DNA of 64,000 nucleotides. Origin: Pseudomonas sp. G2-4. GTDB taxonomy: Bacteria; Pseudomonadota; Gammaproteobacteria; Pseudomonadales; Pseudomonadaceae. The stretch's first letter is position 1. Each line of letters begins with the position of its first letter. Shown piece after piece: positions 1,159 to 37,465 of the stretch. The notes beneath the pieces were generated by a model that worked only from the letters and a program-made list of their open reading frames with translations, searched no databases and was not told the origin of the DNA. Position numbers and translations under genes: made by a program. The DNA lies in NCBI RefSeq assembly GCF_030064125.1, contig NZ_CP125957.1, forward strand, positions 5,574,501 through 5,638,500, read 5' to 3'.

Positions 1159-1650
1159 ATGAGCCGCGCTTTCGTCAACGAAGACAACGCCGCTGCCCAG
1201 GCCGATCAGCCGGTCGAACGCCAGGTCAGTGCGCAACCCAATTACGTCACCCCCAGCGGGTTTGCTCAATTGCAGGCCCGGGTCGCCGAGTTGCAGGCGT
1301 TGCACAGCCAGCAGACCGCCAGGAAAGATCAGTCAGACAAACAGCGCATCGCCGACATCGAACGGGACCTGCGCTATTTCAACCAACGCTTGCAAAGCGC
1401 GCAGGTCGTTGCGCCGACGTCAGCGGAACAGGTGCGCATCGGGCATTGGGTGACCTTTGTCGATGAGCACGATCAGCAACAGCGAGTGCAATTGGTGGGT
1501 GAAGACCAGGCCGATGCGGCGAGTGGGCTGATCAACTGGGGCTCCCCCCTGGGGCGGGCGTTGCTGGGGGCGAAGGCTGGGGATGAGGTGATCTGGGAGC
1601 GACCTGTCGGGAATCTCGCCATTGAAGTCGTTGCGATAGAGGTTGATTAA
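1159..1650 (+). CDS. GreA/GreB-family transcription elongation factor-like protein
   Basis: 163 residues. ATG at 1159 follows AGAGGAG at 1146-1152, so the longer open frame from 952 is rejected. An N-terminal helical segment of about residues 25-85 (QLQARVAELQALHSQQ ... RYFNQRLQSAQ) is predicted to form the coiled-coil stalk. It is followed by a GreA/GreB-like C-terminal beta domain (VRIGHWVTFVDEHDQQQRVQLVGEDQAD) ending in the family signature SPLGRALLGAKAGDEV near residues 133-148. The family binds the RNA polymerase secondary channel or acts as anti-factors of the Gfh/Rnk type. Whether the acidic coiled-coil tip needed for cleavage stimulation is kept is not clear, so the exact role is open. 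Confidence 0.75.
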   Translation: MSRAFVNEDNAAAQADQPVERQVSAQPNYVTPSGFAQLQARVAELQALHSQQTARKDQSDKQRIADIERDLRYFNQRLQSAQVVAPTSAEQVRIGHWVTFVDEHDQQQRVQLVGEDQADAASGLINWGSPLGRALLGAKAGDEVIWERPVGNLAIEVVAIEVD

Positions 1651-1731
1651 TGGACTAGGCGGCCGGCGCTTGTTAGTACAATGATAAAAAATAAAACATT
1701 TCCAACAGGGTCGCATAAAGAGCGTTAAAGC

Positions 1732-1745
1732 CTCTAGCGCTAGAG
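1732..1745. repeat. perfect 14-bp palindrome upstream of lanA1
   Basis: CTCTAGCGCTAGAG is its own reverse complement. No T-run follows, so it is not a standard terminator. It lies between the elongation-factor gene and the lantibiotic-like genes and could be an operator or a weak processing site. No function is shown. Confidence 0.45.
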
Positions 1746-1832
1746 CGTGGGAACAGCACATTACATGCCTGTAGCAACATGTAACCGCAACATAAGGTCA
1801 TAACGACATGTTTGTGTTAGTTCAGGAGCATG

Positions 1833-1879
1833 CTACTGTTTTCCCCGCGCCAAAACAGGGTGCAACAACAGTAGAGGAG
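1833..1879 (+). promoter_or_regulatory. lanA1 leader with two mutually exclusive hairpins
   Basis: Hairpin A pairs CTGTTTT (1836-1842) with AAAACAG (1852-1858). Hairpin B pairs CTACTGTT (1833-1840) with AACAGTAG (1867-1874). Both are perfect, share bases 1836-1840 and cannot form together. Hairpin B ends at the ribosome binding site GAGGAG (1874-1879) of lanA1, so it could shield it. The pairing is seen in the sequence. A regulatory role is inference, and the transcript start is unknown. Confidence 0.4.
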
Positions 1880-1886
1880 AAACATG

Positions 1887-2030
1887 ATGAGCGAACAAAT
1901 ACTGGCCATGTCAGGTGACTTCGACGGTGACTTCAAGTCCTACCAGCAAGTTAACAGTCGCGGTATTGAGTCAGCAGCGCTGACCATTGTCGAGTGCGGC
2001 ACCGCAGAGTGCACCGCTCTTTTGTGCTAA
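1887..2030 (+). CDS. lanA1: class II lanthipeptide precursor LanA1
   Basis: 47 residues from the second of two adjacent ATGs (1884 and 1887). The second gives a 7-nt spacing from GAGGAG and aligns with lanA2. The N-terminal leader (MSEQILAMSGDF, then F16, Y19, Q20) is shared with lanA2. The C-terminal core is Thr/Cys-rich: TIVECGTAECTALLC, with Thr33, Thr39, Thr43 and Cys37, Cys42, Cys47, plus Ser29. Thr-to-Cys spacings of 3, 2 and 3 intervening residues would allow three methyllanthionine rings. No Gly-Gly cleavage site is visible; the leader boundary probably lies between residues 25 and 33. The assignment rests on leader conservation, the Thr/Cys pattern and the LanM gene about 400 bp downstream. 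Confidence 0.85.
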   Translation: MSEQILAMSGDFDGDFKSYQQVNSRGIESAALTIVECGTAECTALLC

Positions 2031-2191
2031 ATCCCAGCCTTTCAAAGTCAACCTACGCTGGACGACTTTGATATCCCTAATCCCATTCATAAATGACTTT
2101 ATTTGACATCCTGCAGTTCGGACGCAGTGACTGGCTTCCGTTTGACCATAAATCGCTGCACGCGATGCTTAATAACTGATGAGGAAATACC

Positions 2192-2350
2192 ATGAGCGAA
2201 AAGATCCTGAACATGTCCGGTGACTTCTATCTCGAGTTCAACGCTTATCAAGCGCCTGCCAACAACATCGCGGGGATGCTCGCGACGACAATGGAATGTA
2301 ACACCTTTGGAACGTGCACCAACATTGGCTGTTCGACCCTTGGCTGTTAA
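2192..2350 (+). CDS. lanA2: class II lanthipeptide precursor LanA2
   Basis: 52 residues; ATG follows GAGG at 2181-2184 with a 7-nt spacing. The leader MSEKILNMSGDF ... F16 ... Y19-Q20 is near-identical in pattern to lanA1, so the two genes are paralogues. The core holds four cysteines (Cys36, 42, 47, 52) and hydroxy residues Thr32, 33, 38, 41, 43, 49 and Ser48. T32xxxC36, T38xxxC42, T43xxxC47 and S48xxxC52 are all spaced by three residues, a regular ladder that could give four non-overlapping rings. IAG at residues 26-28 may mark the leader end, but no classical double glycine is present. It is probably co-transcribed with lanA1 and lanM. Confidence 0.85.
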   Translation: MSEKILNMSGDFYLEFNAYQAPANNIAGMLATTMECNTFGTCTNIGCSTLGC

Positions 2351-2390
2351 TCCCGCTTAACTGATATCGAAACAGGCAACACCTATAAAC

Positions 2391-2415
2391 ATAGAGCAGG
2401 CAGCGCCTGCTCTAT
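2391..2415 (+). promoter_or_regulatory. intercistronic hairpin between lanA2 and lanM
   Basis: ATAGAGCAGGC (2391-2401) pairs perfectly with GCCTGCTCTAT (2405-2415) around a 3-nt loop. No U-run follows, so it is likely a partial attenuator, pause or RNA-stabilising structure. It ends 6 nt before the lanM ribosome binding site. Such a hairpin would let precursor RNA exceed synthetase RNA, as in other lantibiotic operons (inference). Confidence 0.65.
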
Positions 2416-2434
2416 CCATGTCAGGAGATACGGC

Positions 2435-5400
2435 ATGCTTGTTAACGCTTTGAAGTTGGATCAGCGAGGGAAGTATAGGTACGCCTCCGGCAGCGACATC
2501 GCCCTTTTTGAAAACAACCTGACCCGCCTGCATACTGATGACCAATCCTTGCTGAATCACTTTGGGCTGAACAGGGAACAGCTGGTCTCGTATATCAAGG
2601 AACCCATCAACCAGCAGCACTTGCCCGCCGATGGCAAAACCACCTTGAGCACCTTGAAGGAAAAGCTTATTCACCTCGACAGCATTAATGTCGAAGCGAA
2701 AATAAGCTCGAGCAGCAAAGACAATTTTTATTGGTTCGGCTATCGTTTTTTTCTTTATTTCATCGACACATTCAAGGCCGACGAGCGCTACTGCAATGCG
2801 TCAATATACATTGATGAACCCGCTTTGTTTGCAAGCCTTGAACGCTATGTCCTGGCCCGAGTCGGACGCACGTCAGAACAAAGCCTTGTCCATTATCTGA
2901 ATACGCGGATTGCGAACGGCGATGACATTGACTTGAGCGGATTCAATGAGCAATTGCGCACGTTGCCGTTGCTGAAGTTTTTCGAATCCTACCCAGTGCT
3001 GGCAACACTGCTGTTTGATCTGCTGGAAGACACCATTCATTACCTTTATACGGTCGTTCACAACTTCGCCGACGATGCTGAATCGTTGGAGGCAGAGTTT
3101 TCGATCCCGTCTCGGAAAATCGATGCTATTGAGCTCGGCCTGGGTGACCCCCACGGTCGTGGCGAAACGGTCTGCCAAGTGAAAACGTGTACGGTTTCAC
3201 TGATCTACAAGCCAAGAGCAAGCCGGGAGGCGCTTTTTTTCTATCGTCTTCTTGGGCAGTTGCGTGAGTGGACAGGCGCGGATTGTTTTTCTATCCACGC
3301 GCCAAGCATTCTCAGTCGCGAACGACATAGTTGGGTAGAAGAAGTCGACAACCTGCCTTGCGATAGCGAAACAGACATTGAGCTGTTCTATAAAAAAATG
3401 GGAGCACAAATAGCCGTCATTCATGCGTTGAATGGGATCGACTTCCACTACGAAAATATTATTGCGTGCGGCAACAGTCCGGTCATGATTGACCTCGAGT
3501 GTTTGTTCACGGCTTCCACCAGCGACCTGTTCACTGACCTGCCCACTGGCTGCGCACTGTCCAATAGCTTCAAATGGGTCCAGCAGTCAGTCTGTTCTAG
3601 CGGCTTTGTACCCTTTTCACAACAACTCAATAACGACCAAAGCGGTCTGACCCGGCAAGCGCTATTCATCTCTACCCGCCACTCCCTGGTTTTCGAGGCT
3701 GGCTTTTACCACCTGCGTAAAGTTGAATTCGAACACCATCTGATGCAAAAACATCTGCCGCTTTTACAGGCTGAGCGCAAGGGACCTGAAGCTTATAAAG
3801 CAGAACTCTTCCAAGGCTTTGAATATGCCTATGGCGAACTGATGGTTCATCGGCGCGCAATCATGCAGATGCTTGAACAATCCGCGGGCGAACTGTCAAC
3901 CCGGGTATTGCTCAAAAATTCCCAGCGCTACGCTGATTTTATCGGGCTGAGCCGCCACCCACGCTTTATGCAAAACATGCTCGACAGGGAACTTCTACTC
4001 GCCACGCTGTGGAAAGATTTGAAAGAACCCTATCGGGAAAAGGGCATTCCTCGCCATGAAATAGCCGATCTGCAAAAATCCAGTATTCCGTGTTTTACCA
4101 TGCCTCTGAACGCTAACTATTTTATGAGCGCACAGGGTGAACCCGTAGAAATGGCGGCCGTGGAGCAACCGATAAAAAGCTGTCTACAGAAAATAGCCAA
4201 CCTGTCCCGGAATGACTGGGCCTTGCAACGCACCTTACTCGAAATCTGTTTGTTCCCAGAACCGAATGGACGTCCACCCTCCCGTATCACCCAGACACTG
4301 ACGAACCTTGAACAGCGCCCACAAACGGACAGACTCGACGCGATAGTGAGCATCAGTTCCCGCCTTGAGGAACTCGCGGTAGTGGGCACAGCAGAGGATG
4401 TAAGCTGGCTGTCTTTCCATACGCACCCCACGACTCAGAGAAAATACCCGTCCCCCATGGATCACGGGCTTTACTCTGGTATCGCCGGGATTGGCCTGTT
4501 TTATCTGAGCCTGTTCAAAGTGAGCGGCAAACCGCACTTCCTGTCGCGCATGGATCAGGTCCTGTACTCCCTGGAACAACGCTTTGGCTTTTTCAAAACC
4601 GATTTGACCGTCAGTGCCTATCACGGGCTGGGGGCTTATCTCTATCTGCTGATCAATCGTCGGCAAATAACGGAAGATCCGAAACACGATGAAAAAATCG
4701 CCGGCCTGCTGACCCAACTGATTGAAGTCCCTCCTGAAGACTATGATTTCGACTTCCTGGGCGGCTGTTGTGGGGCGGTGACGCTACTGGCCAATATCCA
4801 TGCGTTATCTGCGCAGGAGGACGTGCTGCCGGCCATCCGACGCATGGTCGACTACATAAAGGATCAAGTCCTGATTGAAGACGGTCAGCTTCTGCGGCGG
4901 GATGATCGCTCCGTCATTTTGACGGGCTTATCCCACGGCCTCTCGGGCGTCATCCATGCATTGTGCAAAGCCTATGACGTGACCGGCGATGCGGCTTTGG
5001 TGCCCTTGGCCATCCAGGTGCTCAAGGGCGAAAACCGCTTGAGTCGGGACGGTTTCTGGCTGGACCTGCGAAACCTCGGGCCTGCGGACCATACGTCCAA
5101 GTGGTGCCACGGCGACGGAGGCATCCTCATCGCCAGGCGCCAGCTGATGAAATCCATGGGAGATGCCTTGGACGAAGCGACCAGGCAGACGGTGCTCGAC
5201 GACATACAGCGATGTGAGAGCAATCTCTGGCAGCACGGCTTTGGCGAGGGCTATAACCTTTGCCATGGCGATTTCGGCAATCTGATCTGCCTGTATGACT
5301 TGTATCGGCATTCAGATACCCCTGAAGGCATGCGCAGGGTCCGGGAGGCGCTTGGCGACATAGCCCAGCAGTTTTTTGAAGGACCATCGCTCGACAGCGA

Positions 5401-5518
5401 CCGGGTGCCCGACGTCAGTCTGCTCACCGGCATTACGGGCGCGGGTTATGCCTTGCTATATGCAATGGATCCGACCCTCCCCAACATACTCTCGCTTGAT
5501 TTTGCGATGCCTGCATAG
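2435..5518 (+). CDS. lanM: class II lanthipeptide synthetase LanM
   Basis: 1027 residues, normal for LanM; ATG follows AGGAG at 2422-2426. The N-terminal dehydratase half phosphorylates and eliminates Ser/Thr. It shows GDPHGRGETV (238-246), the lysine of LIYKPRA (K259), and DFHYEN...MIDLE with D336, H338, N341 and D353, whose spacing equals the catalytic D-H-N-D set of CylM. The RxxxxxT elimination motif appears as R490 ... S496, a Thr-to-Ser change. The C-terminal LanC-like cyclase (about 675-1010) has GLSHG (831-835), zinc ligands C891 in WCHG, and C943/H944 in LCHGD. Both halves look intact. It lies downstream of lanA1/lanA2 on the same strand, and the 5' third is AT-rich (19 of 60 G+C at 2701-2760), which suggests transfer. 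No LanT, LanP or LanFEG neighbour exists in the window. Confidence 0.96.
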   Translation: MLVNALKLDQRGKYRYASGSDIALFENNLTRLHTDDQSLLNHFGLNREQLVSYIKEPINQQHLPADGKTTLSTLKEKLIHLDSINVEAKISSSSKDNFYWFGYRFFLYFIDTFKADERYCNASIYIDEPALFASLERYVLARVGRTSEQSLVHYLNTRIANGDDIDLSGFNEQLRTLPLLKFFESYPVLATLLFDLLEDTIHYLYTVVHNFADDAESLEAEFSIPSRKIDAIELGLGDPHGRGETVCQVKTCTVSLIYKPRASREALFFYRLLGQLREWTGADCFSIHAPSILSRERHSWVEEVDNLPCDSETDIELFYKKMGAQIAVIHALNGIDFHYENIIACGNSPVMIDLECLFTASTSDLFTDLPTGCALSNSFKWVQQSVCSSGFVPFSQQLNNDQSGLTRQALFISTRHSLVFEAGFYHLRKVEFEHHLMQKHLPLLQAERKGPEAYKAELFQGFEYAYGELMVHRRAIMQMLEQSAGELSTRVLLKNSQRYADFIGLSRHPRFMQNMLDRELLLATLWKDLKEPYREKGIPRHEIADLQKSSIPCFTMPLNANYFMSAQGEPVEMAAVEQPIKSCLQKIANLSRNDWALQRTLLEICLFPEPNGRPPSRITQTLTNLEQRPQTDRLDAIVSISSRLEELAVVGTAEDVSWLSFHTHPTTQRKYPSPMDHGLYSGIAGIGLFYLSLFKVSGKPHFLSRMDQVLYSLEQRFGFFKTDLTVSAYHGLGAYLYLLINRRQITEDPKHDEKIAGLLTQLIEVPPEDYDFDFLGGCCGAVTLLANIHALSAQEDVLPAIRRMVDYIKDQVLIEDGQLLRRDDRSVILTGLSHGLSGVIHALCKAYDVTGDAALVPLAIQVLKGENRLSRDGFWLDLRNLGPADHTSKWCHGDGGILIARRQLMKSMGDALDEATRQTVLDDIQRCESNLWQHGFGEGYNLCHGDFGNLICLYDLYRHSDTPEGMRRVREALGDIAQQFFEGPSLDSDRVPDVSLLTGITGAGYALLYAMDPTLPNILSLDFAMPA

Positions 5519-5531
5519 ACAACCAAAAACC

Positions 5532-5623
5532 CTGTGGGAGTGAGTTTGCTCGCGATAGCGGTGGGTCAGTTTGCATCAACGCTGAATGTGCCACCGTCAT
5601 TGCGAGCAAGCTCGCTCCCACAG
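5532..5623. repeat. inverted REP pair (GTGGGAGCGAGC class)
   Basis: Two REP arms, GTGGGAGTGAGTTTGCTCGCGA and its inverted partner ending GCTCGCTCCCACAG, face each other about 45 bp apart after lanM. This doublet form (REPIN) recurs across the window. The first arm carries two substitutions relative to the others. Confidence 0.85.
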
Positions 5624-5641
5624 TGATTGATTGCCCCCCAT

Positions 5642-5673
5642 AAAAAACGGAGCCTTCGAAGGCTCCGTTTTTT
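5642..5673. terminator. bidirectional rho-independent terminator between lanM and ettA
   Basis: The stem ACGGAGCCTT/AAGGCTCCGT is flanked by six A on the left and six T on the right, so it can end transcription from lanM on the plus strand and ettA on the minus strand. Confidence 0.9.
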
Positions 5674-5689
5674 CATGCAACCAACCGGA

Positions 5690-7354
<1,665 letters not shown>

Positions 7355-7415
7355 GGTGAACCTAGCGTCAGTGACAGGTGAAAAGAACGAGCCAGGCCAT
7401 GCGCGGCGCCGGCAC

Positions 7416-7429
7416 TTGATCGTTATCAA
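7416..7429. promoter_or_regulatory. perfect ANR/FNR-type box between ettA and morA
   Basis: TTGATCGTTATCAA matches the consensus TTGAT-N4-ATCAA in every fixed base. It is 62 bp from the ettA start codon and about 195 bp from the proposed morA start, a distance that fits class II activation of ettA better. The match is visible; binding is inferred. Confidence 0.65.
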
Positions 7430-7624
7430 TGCCTGCGGGCAGTTCAAGCCTGGGGGTCTGGAGCCGGAGCGCTCTTGTTTGACCGGCAAAGCTACCTCAA
7501 CCGTCAGTCAAGGTCCAGCCATCGAGGACTGGCACTTTGCCACAAGGCAAGGCATGCTAGCCGCCCTCCGGGCGTCCGGCTTATAGTGCACGCGCGCCAG
7601 TCCAGCAAACTGCAGGATTCCAGC

Positions 7625-14841: not shown

Positions 14842-14878
14842 GCTGAATCTCCTTGATGCCTGAAAGGAAAGCGGTTTT

Positions 14879-15517
14879 GTGGGAGCGAGCTTGCTCGCGA
14901 TAGCGTTGGGTCAGTCAACATTATCATTAACTGACACACCGCCATCGCGAGCAAGCTCGCTCCCACAGGGAATCCGTGGAGTATGCAAATGTTGAAACCA
15001 CCCCAAAACAACTGTGGGAGCGAGCCTGCTCGCGATAGCGGTGGATCAGTCAACATCATCACTCACTGACACACCGCCATCGCGAGCAAGCTCGCTCCCA
15101 CAGGGAATCTGTGGTGTATGCAAATGTTGAAACCACCCCAAAACAACTGGGGGAGCGAGCCTGCTCGCGATAGCGGTGGACCAGTCAACATCATCATGAA
15201 CTGACACACCGCCATCGCGAGCAGGCTCGCTCCCACAGGGAGTCTGTGGTGTATGCAAATGTTGAAACCACCCCAAAACAACTGTGGGAGCGAGCCTGCT
15301 CGCGAATGCGTTGGGTCAGTCAACATCATCACTCACTGACCCACCGCCATCGCGAGCAAGCTCGCTCCCACAAGGGGATCTGTGGTGTATGCAAATGTTG
15401 ACCCCCCCCCAAAACAACTGTGGGAGCGAGCTTGCTCGCGATAGCGGTGGGTCAGTCAACATCATCATTAACTGACCCACCGCCATCGCGAGCAAGCTCG
15501 CTCCCACAGGGGATTAC
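14879..15517. repeat. tandem array of REP doublets, period about 135 bp
   Basis: Forward arms begin at 14879, 15014, 15149, 15284 and 15420 (periods 135, 135, 135, 136). Each unit holds GTGGGAGCGAGC(T/C)TGCTCGCG, a spacer with GTCAGTCAACAT, the inverted arm CGCGAGCAAGCTCGCTCCCA, and the linker TATGCAAATGTTG...CCCCAAAACAA. The fifth unit stops after its inverted arm, giving about 4.7 copies. This fills most of the 694-bp gap between the COG0523 GTPase and ybdD; I see no gene in it. The short frames within it repeat with the array and are not credible. Confidence 0.95.
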
Positions 15518-23884: not shown

Positions 23885-24598
23885 ATGGACAAGTGGAAGG
23901 ACTTGCAGCTGAGGAAGTTATCCTGTGAAAGAGACCTGCAGACGGCCTATCGTCTGGTCCTTAATTTCTTTAACAATCAGGGATTTGAATACTGCGCATT
24001 TGCAGCCTATCTAGGAAGCCCCGATAAGCACACCAGTAAGGTCAACCTGAACAATTACCCTTATGGATGGGACCGGCTTTATGAACAAAACGGCTATGCT
24101 TCGAGTGATCCTGTAGTAGCACATTGCAATCAATCACCGTTACCCATTTTGTGGAATGAAGATGTATTTGCCCAGGCCCCCAAGTTGTGGCAAGAACTTA
24201 ATCGACAGGGACTCAAATACGGCTGGACCCAGGCAGTTCATGATGAACAGGGAACACACTGCAGTCTGTTCAGCCTCGCACGGACTCATTGCCCCATCGA
24301 CATCGACGAGCATTATGGCAATCTCGGCTACGCCATCTTTGCCAGTCAAAGGCTGCATGCCCTCGCCGGCAAAAAGCTATCTGACGCCGTCGCCGTCAGG
24401 CAAAAATGTCATTTGTCGCCCAGAGAGATCGAAGTGTTGAGATGGTCTGCCGAAGGCAAGACGGCGTCGGAAGTAGGCAGGATTCTTTGTCTTTCCGAAC
24501 GGACGGTGAATTTCCATGTATGCAGTTGCATGCGCAAACTGAATGTCAGCAATAAAATTTCAGCGGTCGCCAAAGCCGCTCAAATCCATGTGATCTGA
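23885..24598 (+). CDS. LuxR-type quorum-sensing regulator, orphan (solo)
   Basis: 237 residues; ATG follows CAGGAGAG at 23873-23880. The N-terminal autoinducer-binding domain keeps the acyl-homoserine-lactone contacts in canonical spacing: W62, Y66 (WDRLY), D75-P76 (SSDPVV) and W90. The C-terminal GerE helix-turn-helix is LSPREIEVLRWSAEGKTASE...LSERTVNFHVCSCMRKL. No luxI gene is present within the window. It may respond to own or foreign AHLs. AT-richer DNA around it suggests late acquisition or a horizontally mobile regulator. Unlike the plant-responsive PsoR/OryR group, both W and Y are unsubstituted. Confidence 0.92.
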   Translation: MDKWKDLQLRKLSCERDLQTAYRLVLNFFNNQGFEYCAFAAYLGSPDKHTSKVNLNNYPYGWDRLYEQNGYASSDPVVAHCNQSPLPILWNEDVFAQAPKLWQELNRQGLKYGWTQAVHDEQGTHCSLFSLARTHCPIDIDEHYGNLGYAIFASQRLHALAGKKLSDAVAVRQKCHLSPREIEVLRWSAEGKTASEVGRILCLSERTVNFHVCSCMRKLNVSNKISAVAKAAQIHVI

Positions 24599-28983: not shown

Positions 28984-29091
28984 GTGTCCGCGATGTCCCT
29001 GACCTGAACAGTCCACAGGCGAAAGTAGATGCTTGGCTAACTATTTTTTCCAGCAGGCGTAACTTCCAGTTACAGCTCGGTGATAATCTCG

Positions 29092-30357
29092 ATGCCTTCC
29101 TCACCGGCCCCGTCCCAGATGCCCAGCCAAGCGCCGCTGCTGCTCCGTCACCATCGTCCCTTCATCGCCTTCTGGCTGGCTCGGATATTCACCGCCAGCG
29201 GCTTCCAGATGCTGACCGTGGCCATCGGCTGGAACCTCTATCAACTGACCGGCAACGTCTTGGACCTGGGCCTTGTGGGGTTGGTGGAGTTTGCCCCGCG
29301 CGTACTGTTCATGCTCCATACCGGGCACGTGGCCGACCGCTATGACCGGCGCAAGGTCGCGGCGATCTGCCAATCATTGCAGGCGATGATTGCCCTGGCG
29401 CTGGTCATTGGCAGTGCCACCGACAATGTCACCCGGGAAATGATCTTCATCCTCGCTTTCCTGCTGGGGGCCGCCCGCTCCTTCGAAATGCCCACCACCC
29501 AGGCCCTGCTGCCCAGCATCGTGCCCGCTGCGCTGTTTCCCCGGGCCGTGGCCGCCGCCCAGTCGGCCCAGCAGTCCGCCACCATCGTCGCCCCCGCCCT
29601 CGGCGGCTTGCTCTACGCCTTCGGCAGCGTCTGGGTCTATGGGCCGACGGTGCTGCTCTACATCATCGCCTGCTGCCTGATGCTCAACCTGCCCGCCCGG
29701 CAGACACCGCTGAACAAAGGCAAGGCGACACTGGACTCATTGCTGGCCGGGATTCGCTTCATTCGCAGCCGCCCGGACATTCTCGGGGCGATTTCCCTGG
29801 ACCTGTTCGCCGTGCTGTTGGGCGGCGCGACAGCGTTGCTGCCGGTGTTCGCCAAGGATATTTTGCTCACCGGCCCCTGGGGCCTGGGCCTGTTGCGCTC
29901 GGCGCCGGCGGTCGGGGCCTTGCTGATGTCGCTGTGGCTGGCGCGATTTGCCGTGGAGCGCAAGGTGGGACGGGTGATGTTCACCGCCGTGGGGGTGTTC
30001 GGCGTCGCCACCATTGCGTTCGGTCTCTCCACCTCGTTCTGGTTCTCCCTGGCGGTGCTGGTGGTGCTGGGGGCGGCTGACATGATCAGCATGGTCATCC
30101 GCGCCTCTTTCGTGCAGTTGGAAACCCCGGATGAAATGCGCGGCCGGGTCAGCGCGGTGAACGGGCTGTTCATCGGCGCCTCGAACCAGCTGGGCGAATT
30201 CGAGTCCGGCCTCACCGCCCACTGGTTCGGCACCGTGCCGGCGGTGGTCATGGGCGGCGTCGGCACGCTGCTGGTGACCGGGGCCTGGATCAAACTGTTC
30301 CCGACCCTGGCCAACCGCGACCGGATGCACGAACCGGCTGAAGAGGCGAAAGCCTAG
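29092..30357 (+). CDS. MFS exporter (EntS-like, MFS_3)
   Basis: 421 residues from ATG 29092; an in-frame GTG at 29080 is an alternative. About twelve hydrophobic helices are visible, with the MFS loop motif GHVADRYDRRKVAAI (DRxxRR) between helices 2 and 3. Similar to EntS-type and other exporters with the signature ARSFEMPTTQALLPSIVP. The substrate is unknown. Its stop overlaps the stop of the convergent molybdenum-hydroxylase gene by 4 nt, which suggests close packing but no shared function. Confidence 0.85.
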   Translation: MPSSPAPSQMPSQAPLLLRHHRPFIAFWLARIFTASGFQMLTVAIGWNLYQLTGNVLDLGLVGLVEFAPRVLFMLHTGHVADRYDRRKVAAICQSLQAMIALALVIGSATDNVTREMIFILAFLLGAARSFEMPTTQALLPSIVPAALFPRAVAAAQSAQQSATIVAPALGGLLYAFGSVWVYGPTVLLYIIACCLMLNLPARQTPLNKGKATLDSLLAGIRFIRSRPDILGAISLDLFAVLLGGATALLPVFAKDILLTGPWGLGLLRSAPAVGALLMSLWLARFAVERKVGRVMFTAVGVFGVATIAFGLSTSFWFSLAVLVVLGAADMISMVIRASFVQLETPDEMRGRVSAVNGLFIGASNQLGEFESGLTAHWFGTVPAVVMGGVGTLLVTGAWIKLFPTLANRDRMHEPAEEAKA

Positions 30358-35508: not shown

Positions 35509-35964
35509 TCATTTAATGTACAGCTGGGCCGACATCCGATTACCCGGTGCATTGATCGACAGGTTGCTGAAGCTGAAGGTGCCTGCCTGCTTGCCCTTCA
35601 GATCGAAGATGTACAAATAGCCGACGATCTTGGTCGTGGCTGAACAGTCATTGAGATTGCCATTGTTGTATGCACACACCGGCGAGCGGGTGCCATCGAC
35701 CTCGAAACCGTCCAGCGTGACTTGGGGCTGACGGCCGTAGCCAACCTCCAGCACATAGACTTTGATATTCGGCCCACTGTGATCGCAACGGGTCTGTTCC
35801 TGCCCTGGCGCGATATCCTCGAAACCACAGGCCGGCGATTCGACCTTGAGCACCTTGACCTCGCTCAAAGGCGGCGCCGACGCGGCATTGACGGCCTGCC
35901 CGGGCAACCACAAGCCCAGTGCGCAGCCCACTGCCGCCAGCCGTTTTTTATTCATGCGATACAT
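35509..35964 (-). CDS. small secreted protein, YolA/DUF4879-like
   Basis: 151 residues from ATG 35964, preceded by GGGGAGG. A Sec signal (MYRMNKKRLAAVGCALGLWL...AVNA) precedes ASAPPLSE. The mature part has four cysteines in likely disulfide pairs (PACGFEDI, TRCDHSG, PVCAYNN, NDCSATT) and beta-rich segments. The family resemblance to DUF4879/YolA is from memory. The function is unknown; periplasmic or extracellular location is inferred from the signal peptide. Confidence 0.7.
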   Translation of the reverse strand: MYRMNKKRLAAVGCALGLWLPGQAVNAASAPPLSEVKVLKVESPACGFEDIAPGQEQTRCDHSGPNIKVYVLEVGYGRQPQVTLDGFEVDGTRSPVCAYNNGNLNDCSATTKIVGYLYIFDLKGKQAGTFSFSNLSINAPGNRMSAQLYIK

Positions 35965-36169
35965 AAAGACCTCCCCGGAACCGCGCGCAGTATGGCCCAG
36001 TTGGCGCGTTGGCAAAACATCGGCGACGATCGCAGCCACAACGCTACGCTGCTGGTATGATGCGCGGCTTTTTCCGACCCACAGAAAATTCCCGGGCGCC
36101 GCTGGCGACCTGTGCTTTGCTGTTGAGGTCGATACATTCACGGCGCCCGACGCGCCACGGGGAGCAGAC

Positions 36170-37465
36170 ATGCTGGAAAGGCTGTTTCAACTCAAGGCAC
36201 ACAACACCAACGTGCGGACCGAGATCCTGGCGGGCGTCACGACCTTCCTGGCCATGGCCTACATCCTGTTCGTCAACCCGAGCATCCTCGGCGAAACGGG
36301 CATGGACAAGGGCGCGGTGTTTGTCGCCACCTGCCTGGCGGCGGCCATTGGCTCGACGGTCATGGGCCTGATCGCCAACTACCCGATCGCCCTCGCGCCG
36401 GGCATGGGCCTGAACGCCTTCTTCACCTACACCGTGGTCCTGCACATGGGCCACACCTGGCAAGTGGCGCTGGGCGCGGTGTTCATTTCCGCCGTGCTGT
36501 TTTTCCTGCTGTCGATCTTTCGCATCCGCGAGTGGATCATCAACAGCATCCCGCTGCCCTTGCGTTCGGCCATCGCGGCCGGTATCGGCCTGTTCCTGGC
36601 GCTGATCGCCCTCAATAACGCCGGCATCGTGGTGAAGAACCCGGCGACCCTGGTCGGCCTCGGCGACTTGAAGCAACCGGCACCGATCCTCGCGACCCTC
36701 GGCTTCGTCCTGATCGTCGGCCTCGAAGCGCTGAAAGTGCGCGGGGCGGTGCTGATCGGCATCCTGGCGGTCACCCTTGCTTCGATCCTGATGGGCTTCA
36801 CGCCGTTCGGCGGTGTGGTGTCCATGCCGCCCTCCCTGGCCCCGACCTTCCTGCAACTGGACATCAAGGGCGCCCTGGACATTGGCCTGGTGAGTGTCAT
36901 CTTCGCCTTCCTGTTCGTCGACCTATTCGACAACTCCGGCACCTTGATCGGCGTCGCCAAGCGCGCTGGCCTGATGGGCAAGGACGGCCACATGCCGAAG
37001 ATGGGCCGTGCGCTGATCGCCGACAGTACTGCCGCCATGGCCGGTTCGCTGCTGGGCACCTCCACCACCACCAGCTACATCGAATCGGCAGCGGGCGTCA
37101 GCGCCGGCGGCCGCACCGGCCTGACCGCCATCGTCGTGGCGATCCTGTTCCTGCTGGCGCTGTTCTTCTCGCCACTGGCCGCTAGCGTACCGCCGTTCGC
37201 CACCGCGCCGGCCTTGTTGTTCGTCGCCGTGCTGATGACCTCGGGCCTGGCGGAAATCGACTGGGACGACATCACCGTCGCCGCCCCGGTGGTGGTGACC
37301 GCCCTGGCCATGCCCTTCACTTATTCCATCGCCAACGGCATCGCCTTCGGTTTCATCGCCTGGACCGCCATCAAACTGGTGTCTGGCCGTGGCCGTGAGC
37401 TGAACCCGGCGCTGGTCATCCTGTCGATTCTGTTCGTGATCAAGTTGGGTTGGTTCAACGCATGA
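36170..37465 (+). CDS. NCS2/AzgA-type hypoxanthine/guanine permease
   Basis: 431 residues from ATG 36170 after GGGGAGC; the frame upstream is not coding. About 12-14 helices are seen. Signature segments are [47 protein letters not shown] and [18 protein letters not shown]. The AzgA group imports adenine, guanine or hypoxanthine by proton symport. The start of trmA overlaps its last codons, so the two are co-transcribed, a usual order in Pseudomonas. Confidence 0.93.

Follow-up and report, generated by a model that had tools for sequence, protein, structure and literature searches.

A conserved lanA1-lanA2-lanM class II lanthipeptide locus in Pseudomonas without an adjoining export gene

We analysed a 64,000-nucleotide (nt) stretch of the Pseudomonas sp. 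G2-4 chromosome (NZ_CP125957.1, positions 5,574,501 to 5,638,500; hereafter the window) and found that it carries what its gene content identifies as a compact class II lanthipeptide locus, lanA1-lanA2-lanM, with all three genes on the + strand and no adjoining export gene. The locus belongs to a conserved family, and it is likely that its synthetase, LanM, makes a three-ring product from LanA1 and a four-ring product from LanA2, with export and trimming probably carried out by proteins encoded elsewhere. A preliminary description of this DNA had proposed a class II lanthipeptide locus that has two precursors but neither a transporter (LanT) nor a protease (LanP) nearby; protein family matches, the precursor leaders and the arrangement of 29 of 29 loci support that reading. 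Class II lanthipeptides are familiar chiefly as antibiotics of Gram-positive bacteria that come with an exporter-protease of their own. This Pseudomonas family, present in plant-associated species, keeps just precursors and synthetase together, which raises two questions: whether a general exporter and peptidase complete such a peptide, and if so which ones, and what purpose the peptide serves.

A two-domain synthetase with two precursor genes

The locus comprises the following features:

1887..2030, + strand: lanA1, a precursor of 47 amino acids (aa) whose core holds three Cys (TIVEC-G-TAEC-TALLC); alternative start at 1884
2192..2350, + strand: lanA2, a 52-aa precursor whose core holds four Cys (TTMEC-NTFGTC-TNIGC-STLGC)
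2391..2415, + strand: hairpin between lanA2 and lanM, with an 11-bp stem and a 3-nt loop
2435..5518, + strand: lanM, a 1027-aa class II lanthipeptide synthetase in an intact frame, recognised by TIGR03897, DUF4135, LANC_like and invariant residues

The locus had previously been placed at 1884..5518, and its three frames are indeed present there; for lanA1, though, the second ATG (1887) is a likelier start than the first (1884), because the first ATG is missing in 11 of 13 aligned loci, the window counted among them.

LanM matches TIGR03897 at 549 bits (cut-off 304), and its DUF4135 (253 bits) and LANC_like (176 bits) matches mark it as a single protein combining a dehydratase with a LanC-like cyclase. 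It is the sole LANC_like match in the single-contig 6.65-Mb genome. The best sequence-matched solved structures, LicM2 (6st5) and CylM (5dzt), are the same kind of two-domain enzyme, and align to LanM residues 181-1023 and 179-764, respectively; both of those systems presumably have their own LanT and protease, unlike the locus described here. Eight residues (D238, H240, N341, D353, H834, C891, C943 and H944) are invariant across 40 aligned relatives, picked from 120 listed of 262 protein-database matches; we take them to serve dehydration, zinc binding and cyclisation. These family scores and this invariance bear out the earlier view of an intact LanM equipped with both dehydratase and cyclase residues. 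Among the matches listed, identity to LanM is at least 39% in a group whose named organisms are all Pseudomonas, together with one compost metagenome, and then drops to 28% or less in other phyla, LanMs from outside Pseudomonas sharing 25-28%.

Precursor and synthetase occur together within the genus

LanM matches of any kind were found in 26 of 398 Pseudomonas genomes; 18 of these hold a member of this LanM's family, set at 38% identity or more, and eight hold other LanMs only, some of them very partial. When the precursors were mapped across the same genomes, as had been suggested for the leaders and LanM, the LanA profile and the family LanM coincided: the profile matches exactly the 18 genomes, and the remaining 380 give no match. 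When named genomes were scanned, they yielded 20 Pseudomonas loci of the LanM family, plus one weak Nonomuraea match, and the host species include P. kilonensis, P. brassicacearum subsp. neoaurantiaca, P. thivervalensis, P. zanjanensis, P. citri, P. koreensis, P. lini and P. migulae. Counting loci present in both genome sets once gives 29 distinct family loci, which fall into clade A (16 loci with about 75% LanM identity or more, one of them with lanM in pieces) and clade B (13 loci, 38-45%). The preliminary description would have been refuted if the short frames were not conserved beside LanM; they are conserved, with a LanA upstream of lanM at 29 of 29 loci. LanA1 and LanA2 are both present at 14 of 16 clade-A loci, and a single LanA is present at each of the 13 clade-B loci.

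Both window precursors carry the leader MSE[QK]IL.MSGDF and keep F16, Y19 and Q20, in agreement with the earlier account of these two frames. That LanM binds both precursors through this shared leader, and modifies both, is a well-supported prediction. In an alignment of 20 selected LanA sequences, all share M1, G10, three Cys and the Thr that follows the second Cys. LanA1 of genome G388, which lies outside this set, departs from the pattern, a Tyr replacing the middle Cys; at the same locus (L052) lanM is broken into separate matches, and the precursor seems to be decaying along with its enzyme. The LanA profile matches 79 entries in the protein database, which come from Pseudomonas wherever the organism is named and are annotated as hypothetical or uncharacterized. 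On the window's own genome it matched just the two copies at the locus and revealed no orphan precursor far from it. Additional LanA copies occur in G340 and G313, each at its own locus: G340 has a second LanA2-type copy, and G313 (L038) carries another LanA about 0.5 kb past lanM, its mixed core intermediate between those of the LanA1 and clade-B types. Locus L066 has an extra LanA-like frame upstream of lanA that keeps the leader motif and has a single Cys in the core region, perhaps a decaying precursor.

The paired precursors bring up a narrower version of our explanation, compatible with it, in which the LanA1 and LanA2 products form a two-component lantibiotic and attack the envelope of rival cells jointly. 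Cytolysin likewise joins two dissimilar cores with one LanM. The same combination, with one leader family, is reported for LanII-57 of Kitasatospora (PMC9576775), and the TTxEC of the LanA2 core comes near the mersacidin motif, quoted as TxTxEC (PMC7268733), although the window peptide lacks a full match to it. Clade B, with its one LanA per locus, speaks against joint action, as do L066 and L068, which keep one precursor of two. We regard a two-component product as possible but on the doubtful side.

A fixed chromosomal site in clade A

Two neighbouring genes, both outside the system, mark the site of the locus:

1159..1650, + strand: GreA/GreB-type gene, left neighbour, identified by family match and conserved site
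5690..7489, - strand: ettA, right neighbour, identified by NF008775 (993 bits) and conserved site

The NF008775 match begins at residue 46 of the longest ettA frame, and ettA is an ABC-F translation factor, not a transporter. Both neighbours lie in the available DNA of all 15 clade-A loci with intact lanM, and at the 12 clade-A loci mapped in detail (G388 included) the Gre-type gene lies 1.2-1.5 kb before, and ettA 3.2-3.9 kb after, the lanM start. Among relatives outside the 18 genomes, the two genes stand 83-591 bp apart at nine of 29 loci; for the other 20, the stretch of DNA examined, in one case just 48 bp, contains no ettA. Of six mapped clade-B loci, five lie near a GGDEF-EAL gene, with ettA 9-12 kb away in the four whose stretch includes it, and one (L049) is located elsewhere. 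Identity of lanM correlates moderately with that of flanking genes (Spearman 0.41-0.65), which allows vertical descent of lanM but does not prove it.

We considered the clade-B neighbours as transporter candidates and rejected them: among ten scanned proteins we identified an SDF symporter, a pair of GntR regulators, glyA, cobW and cstA, which we took for ordinary neighbours. Around L049 the frames scanned resembled shadow frames and matched no Pfam family, and the result for that neighbourhood is the one from the ABC_membrane search.

A hairpin lies between lanA and lanM

The 84-nt gap between lanA2 and lanM in the window folds with a z of -4.33, and a lanA-lanM stem of 9-14 pairs was found at 27 of 27 loci checked (14 of 14 in clade A, 13 of 13 in clade B). 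The clade-B count could be partly due to chance, because the stem chosen was the best one within 95 nt, with G-U pairs allowed and without a shuffled control. Stem sequences are unrelated between the clades, and one A-U to G-C exchange occurs inside clade A. Through partial termination or processing, the hairpin may set a high ratio of lanA to lanM mRNA. Together with the differing cores on one leader, it offers a handle for expression and engineering studies.

No ABC exporter or C39/S8 protease match near the locus

The whole genome contains 16 ABC_membrane, two Peptidase_C39 and three Peptidase_S8 matches, none of them inside the window; the nearest ABC_membrane match lies at 4.52 Mb, with lanM at 5.58 Mb. 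We scanned all 40 listed frames of at least 150 aa from position 7475 onward against Pfam or NCBIfam. Family matches were obtained for 31, none of them a LanT, LanP or type-2 ABC transporter, and the remaining nine had no family match, some being probable shadow frames; such domain scans would overlook an immunity protein that lacks a known domain. The window's domain matches and these scans agree with the earlier statement that neither LanT nor LanP lies near the locus. The 18 family genomes have 264 ABC_membrane matches in all, yet on its own contig lanM has no such match at a distance of 75 kb or less. The smallest distance is 76 kb (G300), and in nine draft genomes the contig that carries lanM lacks any match; lanM sits on a draft contig of 22.7 to 411 kb in nine of the 18 genomes, and in G058 it is 2 kb from the contig end.

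Other transporter-type genes in the window encode a major facilitator superfamily (MFS) protein (29080-30354), a permease (35846-37462), two EamA proteins and a cation exporter. The MFS gene is exporter-like, resembling EntS but scoring below that model's cut-off; it lies 24 kb from lanM, with no link seen. A LuxR-type regulator with an autoinducer-binding domain is encoded at 23885-24595, 18 kb from lanM, again with no link seen.

A C39-peptidase transporter encoded elsewhere in the genome had also been envisaged, and the search for it returned two C39 matches, neither of them a dedicated LanT: one is a 248-aa peptidase that stands alone, the other an ABC protein in which the C39-like domain is partial. 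The latter domain scores above the cut-off in a six-frame search and below it when scanned as a protein, and its match begins at model position 18, presumably past the catalytic Cys region. We rejected both as the system's own transporter because Peptidase_C39 is found almost throughout the genus (381 of 398 genomes: all 18 family genomes and 363 of the remaining 380) and does not track LanM. C39 proteins elsewhere in the genome could still act as a shared exporter. A C39-protease ABC transporter in the cluster, one criterion for the lacticin 481 type, is absent here. So is the other, a double-Gly at the leader end, from both window peptides; a double-Gly near the core occurs in LanA1 at 0 of 15 loci, in LanA2 at 2 of 15 and in 6 of 13 clade-B precursors.

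These absences bear on a different reading, in which the modified peptides stay unexported and act inside the producer or are released only on lysis, the leader perhaps never being removed. It draws on the window's lack of any C39, ABC-exporter or S8 match, on the 75 kb free of ABC_membrane matches around lanM in the 18 genomes, on the lack of a conserved double-Gly in clade A and on the same two neighbours at every mapped clade-A locus. General exporters such as MFS proteins or type I systems could serve instead, and the Thr/Cys-rich cores resemble those of secreted lanthipeptides; we consider this reading unlikely. It is rather improbable, too, that the family has long been kept at one site with no exporter, protease or immunity of its own because both ring-bearing products serve a function within the Pseudomonas cell and are not secreted antibiotics.

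Our preferred explanation is instead that the shared leader (MSExIL.MSGDF..[DE]F..Y) docks LanA1 and LanA2 on one LanM, which would dehydrate Thr and Ser and close thioether rings on both precursors. Leader removal and export would then run in trans, with general cell proteins probably taking on both steps. The product may act outside the cell, where its probable role is to compete with other bacteria.

Relation to known systems

Whether this exact system had been described was left undecided in the preliminary description. This kind of system is already known in this Pseudomonas subgroup, since genome surveys list clusters there and LanII-23 of P. ogarae has been modified in Escherichia coli, with five dehydrations and four rings (PMC9576775). 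Several LanII products are reported in the same source to have no recognisable cleavage site or protease. One source (PMC8719888) counts as lanthipeptide clusters of Pseudomonas those with a putative precursor next to a LanM of TIGR03897, the family model that also matches the present LanM; others list clusters in P. thivervalensis SC5 and NFX104, in P. mediterranea, and in strains F113, Q2-87, 1M1-96, MVP1-4 and Ph11C2 (PMC8515041, PMC13074693, PMC4528175, PMC9059233). These clusters, candidate relatives of the present locus, come from the same or neighbouring species, and in the accessible text of these sources they are named without anatomy or function. The type strain of P. ogarae is F113; that species belongs, like P. 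kilonensis, P. brassicacearum and P. thivervalensis, to the P. corrugata subgroup, and clade-A loci are present in the last three species.

LanII-23 resembles the locus described here in being class II and in coming from a P. corrugata-subgroup host, and its four rings fit the four Cys of LanA2; it differs in that one product is listed, against two precursors here. Species group and ring count suggest that LanII-23 may belong to this LanA family. If it does, it should be LanA2-like, because a three-Cys core cannot give four rings. Lanthionine rings, reported for LanII-23, are predicted at the present locus. In the portions of the literature on these clusters available to us, we found no description of the two-precursor layout, the fixed site beside ettA, the lanA-lanM hairpin or the strict co-occurrence of LanA and LanM.

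Other Pseudomonas loci also encode LanM-type synthetases (L053, L054, L055 and L057 and, by gene clustering, L050, L051 and L056), with 20-24% identity to this LanM in the aligned parts. An ABC-transporter or AAA ATPase gene lies near lanM in all four that were scanned of these seven. Several of their LanM frames are split or short.

Selection and points against the interpretation

Median ratios of nonsynonymous to synonymous substitution rates (dN/dS), computed over 14-15 loci, are 0.145 for lanM (105 pairs), 0.174 for lanA1 (86 usable of 91 pairs) and 0.125 for lanA2 (89 of 91). On these values lanA1, lanA2 and lanM are under purifying selection.

Such constraint (dN/dS 0.13-0.17) is hard to square with the idea that the locus is a relic, a once complete cluster that lost its transporter and immunity genes and is now decaying. 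Signs of decay do exist, in the fragmented lanM of G388, the shortened LanM of P. hefeiensis (824 aa), and the absence of one precursor each at L066 (LanA2 not found) and L068 (LanA1 not found). But lanM is matched as one full-length piece at 28 of 29 loci, and the absence of a nearby ABC exporter is common to all 18 genomes rather than scattered among them; a relic is very unlikely.

These broken or incomplete loci nonetheless weigh against our interpretation, and several further points do so as well. The dN/dS values are approximate because median dS is about 0.9. The double-Gly counts mean that a C39-type leader cut may still apply in part of the family, and a full-length C39-ABC-type match is present in two of the 18 family genomes (G209 and G058), far from lanM. 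The near-universal Peptidase_C39 gives no clue to the exporter, and no exporter or protease candidate emerged. Finally, the kinship with LanII-23 rests on species subgroup and ring count, not on sequence.

The upstream region and repeats

One further feature precedes the precursors:

1767..1846, + strand: conserved block 5' of lanA1, a probable promoter/operator region, identified by column conservation

Over 13 aligned loci, 20-base conservation means reach 0.81-0.92 in this block; the 80 bases preceding it give 0.42-0.61 and the 40 following it 0.74-0.78. No match to the sigma-70 consensus falls in the block. A promoter scan of 1500-5750 gave three promoter-like and five terminator-like matches, about as many as shuffled sequence does (2.5 and 4.7), none of them 5' of lanA1. 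A short stem is possible at 1846-1863 in the lanA1 5' leader (GCGCC/GGgTGC), with paired changes in relatives as judged by eye, and similar stems were seen by eye before lanA in clade B.

The window also has 24 matches, against 0 expected, to REP-type palindromes (GCGAGCAAGCTCGCTCCCACA), whose orientation alternates; one pair lies 3' of lanM at 5533-5622, and ten form an array at 14878-15508.

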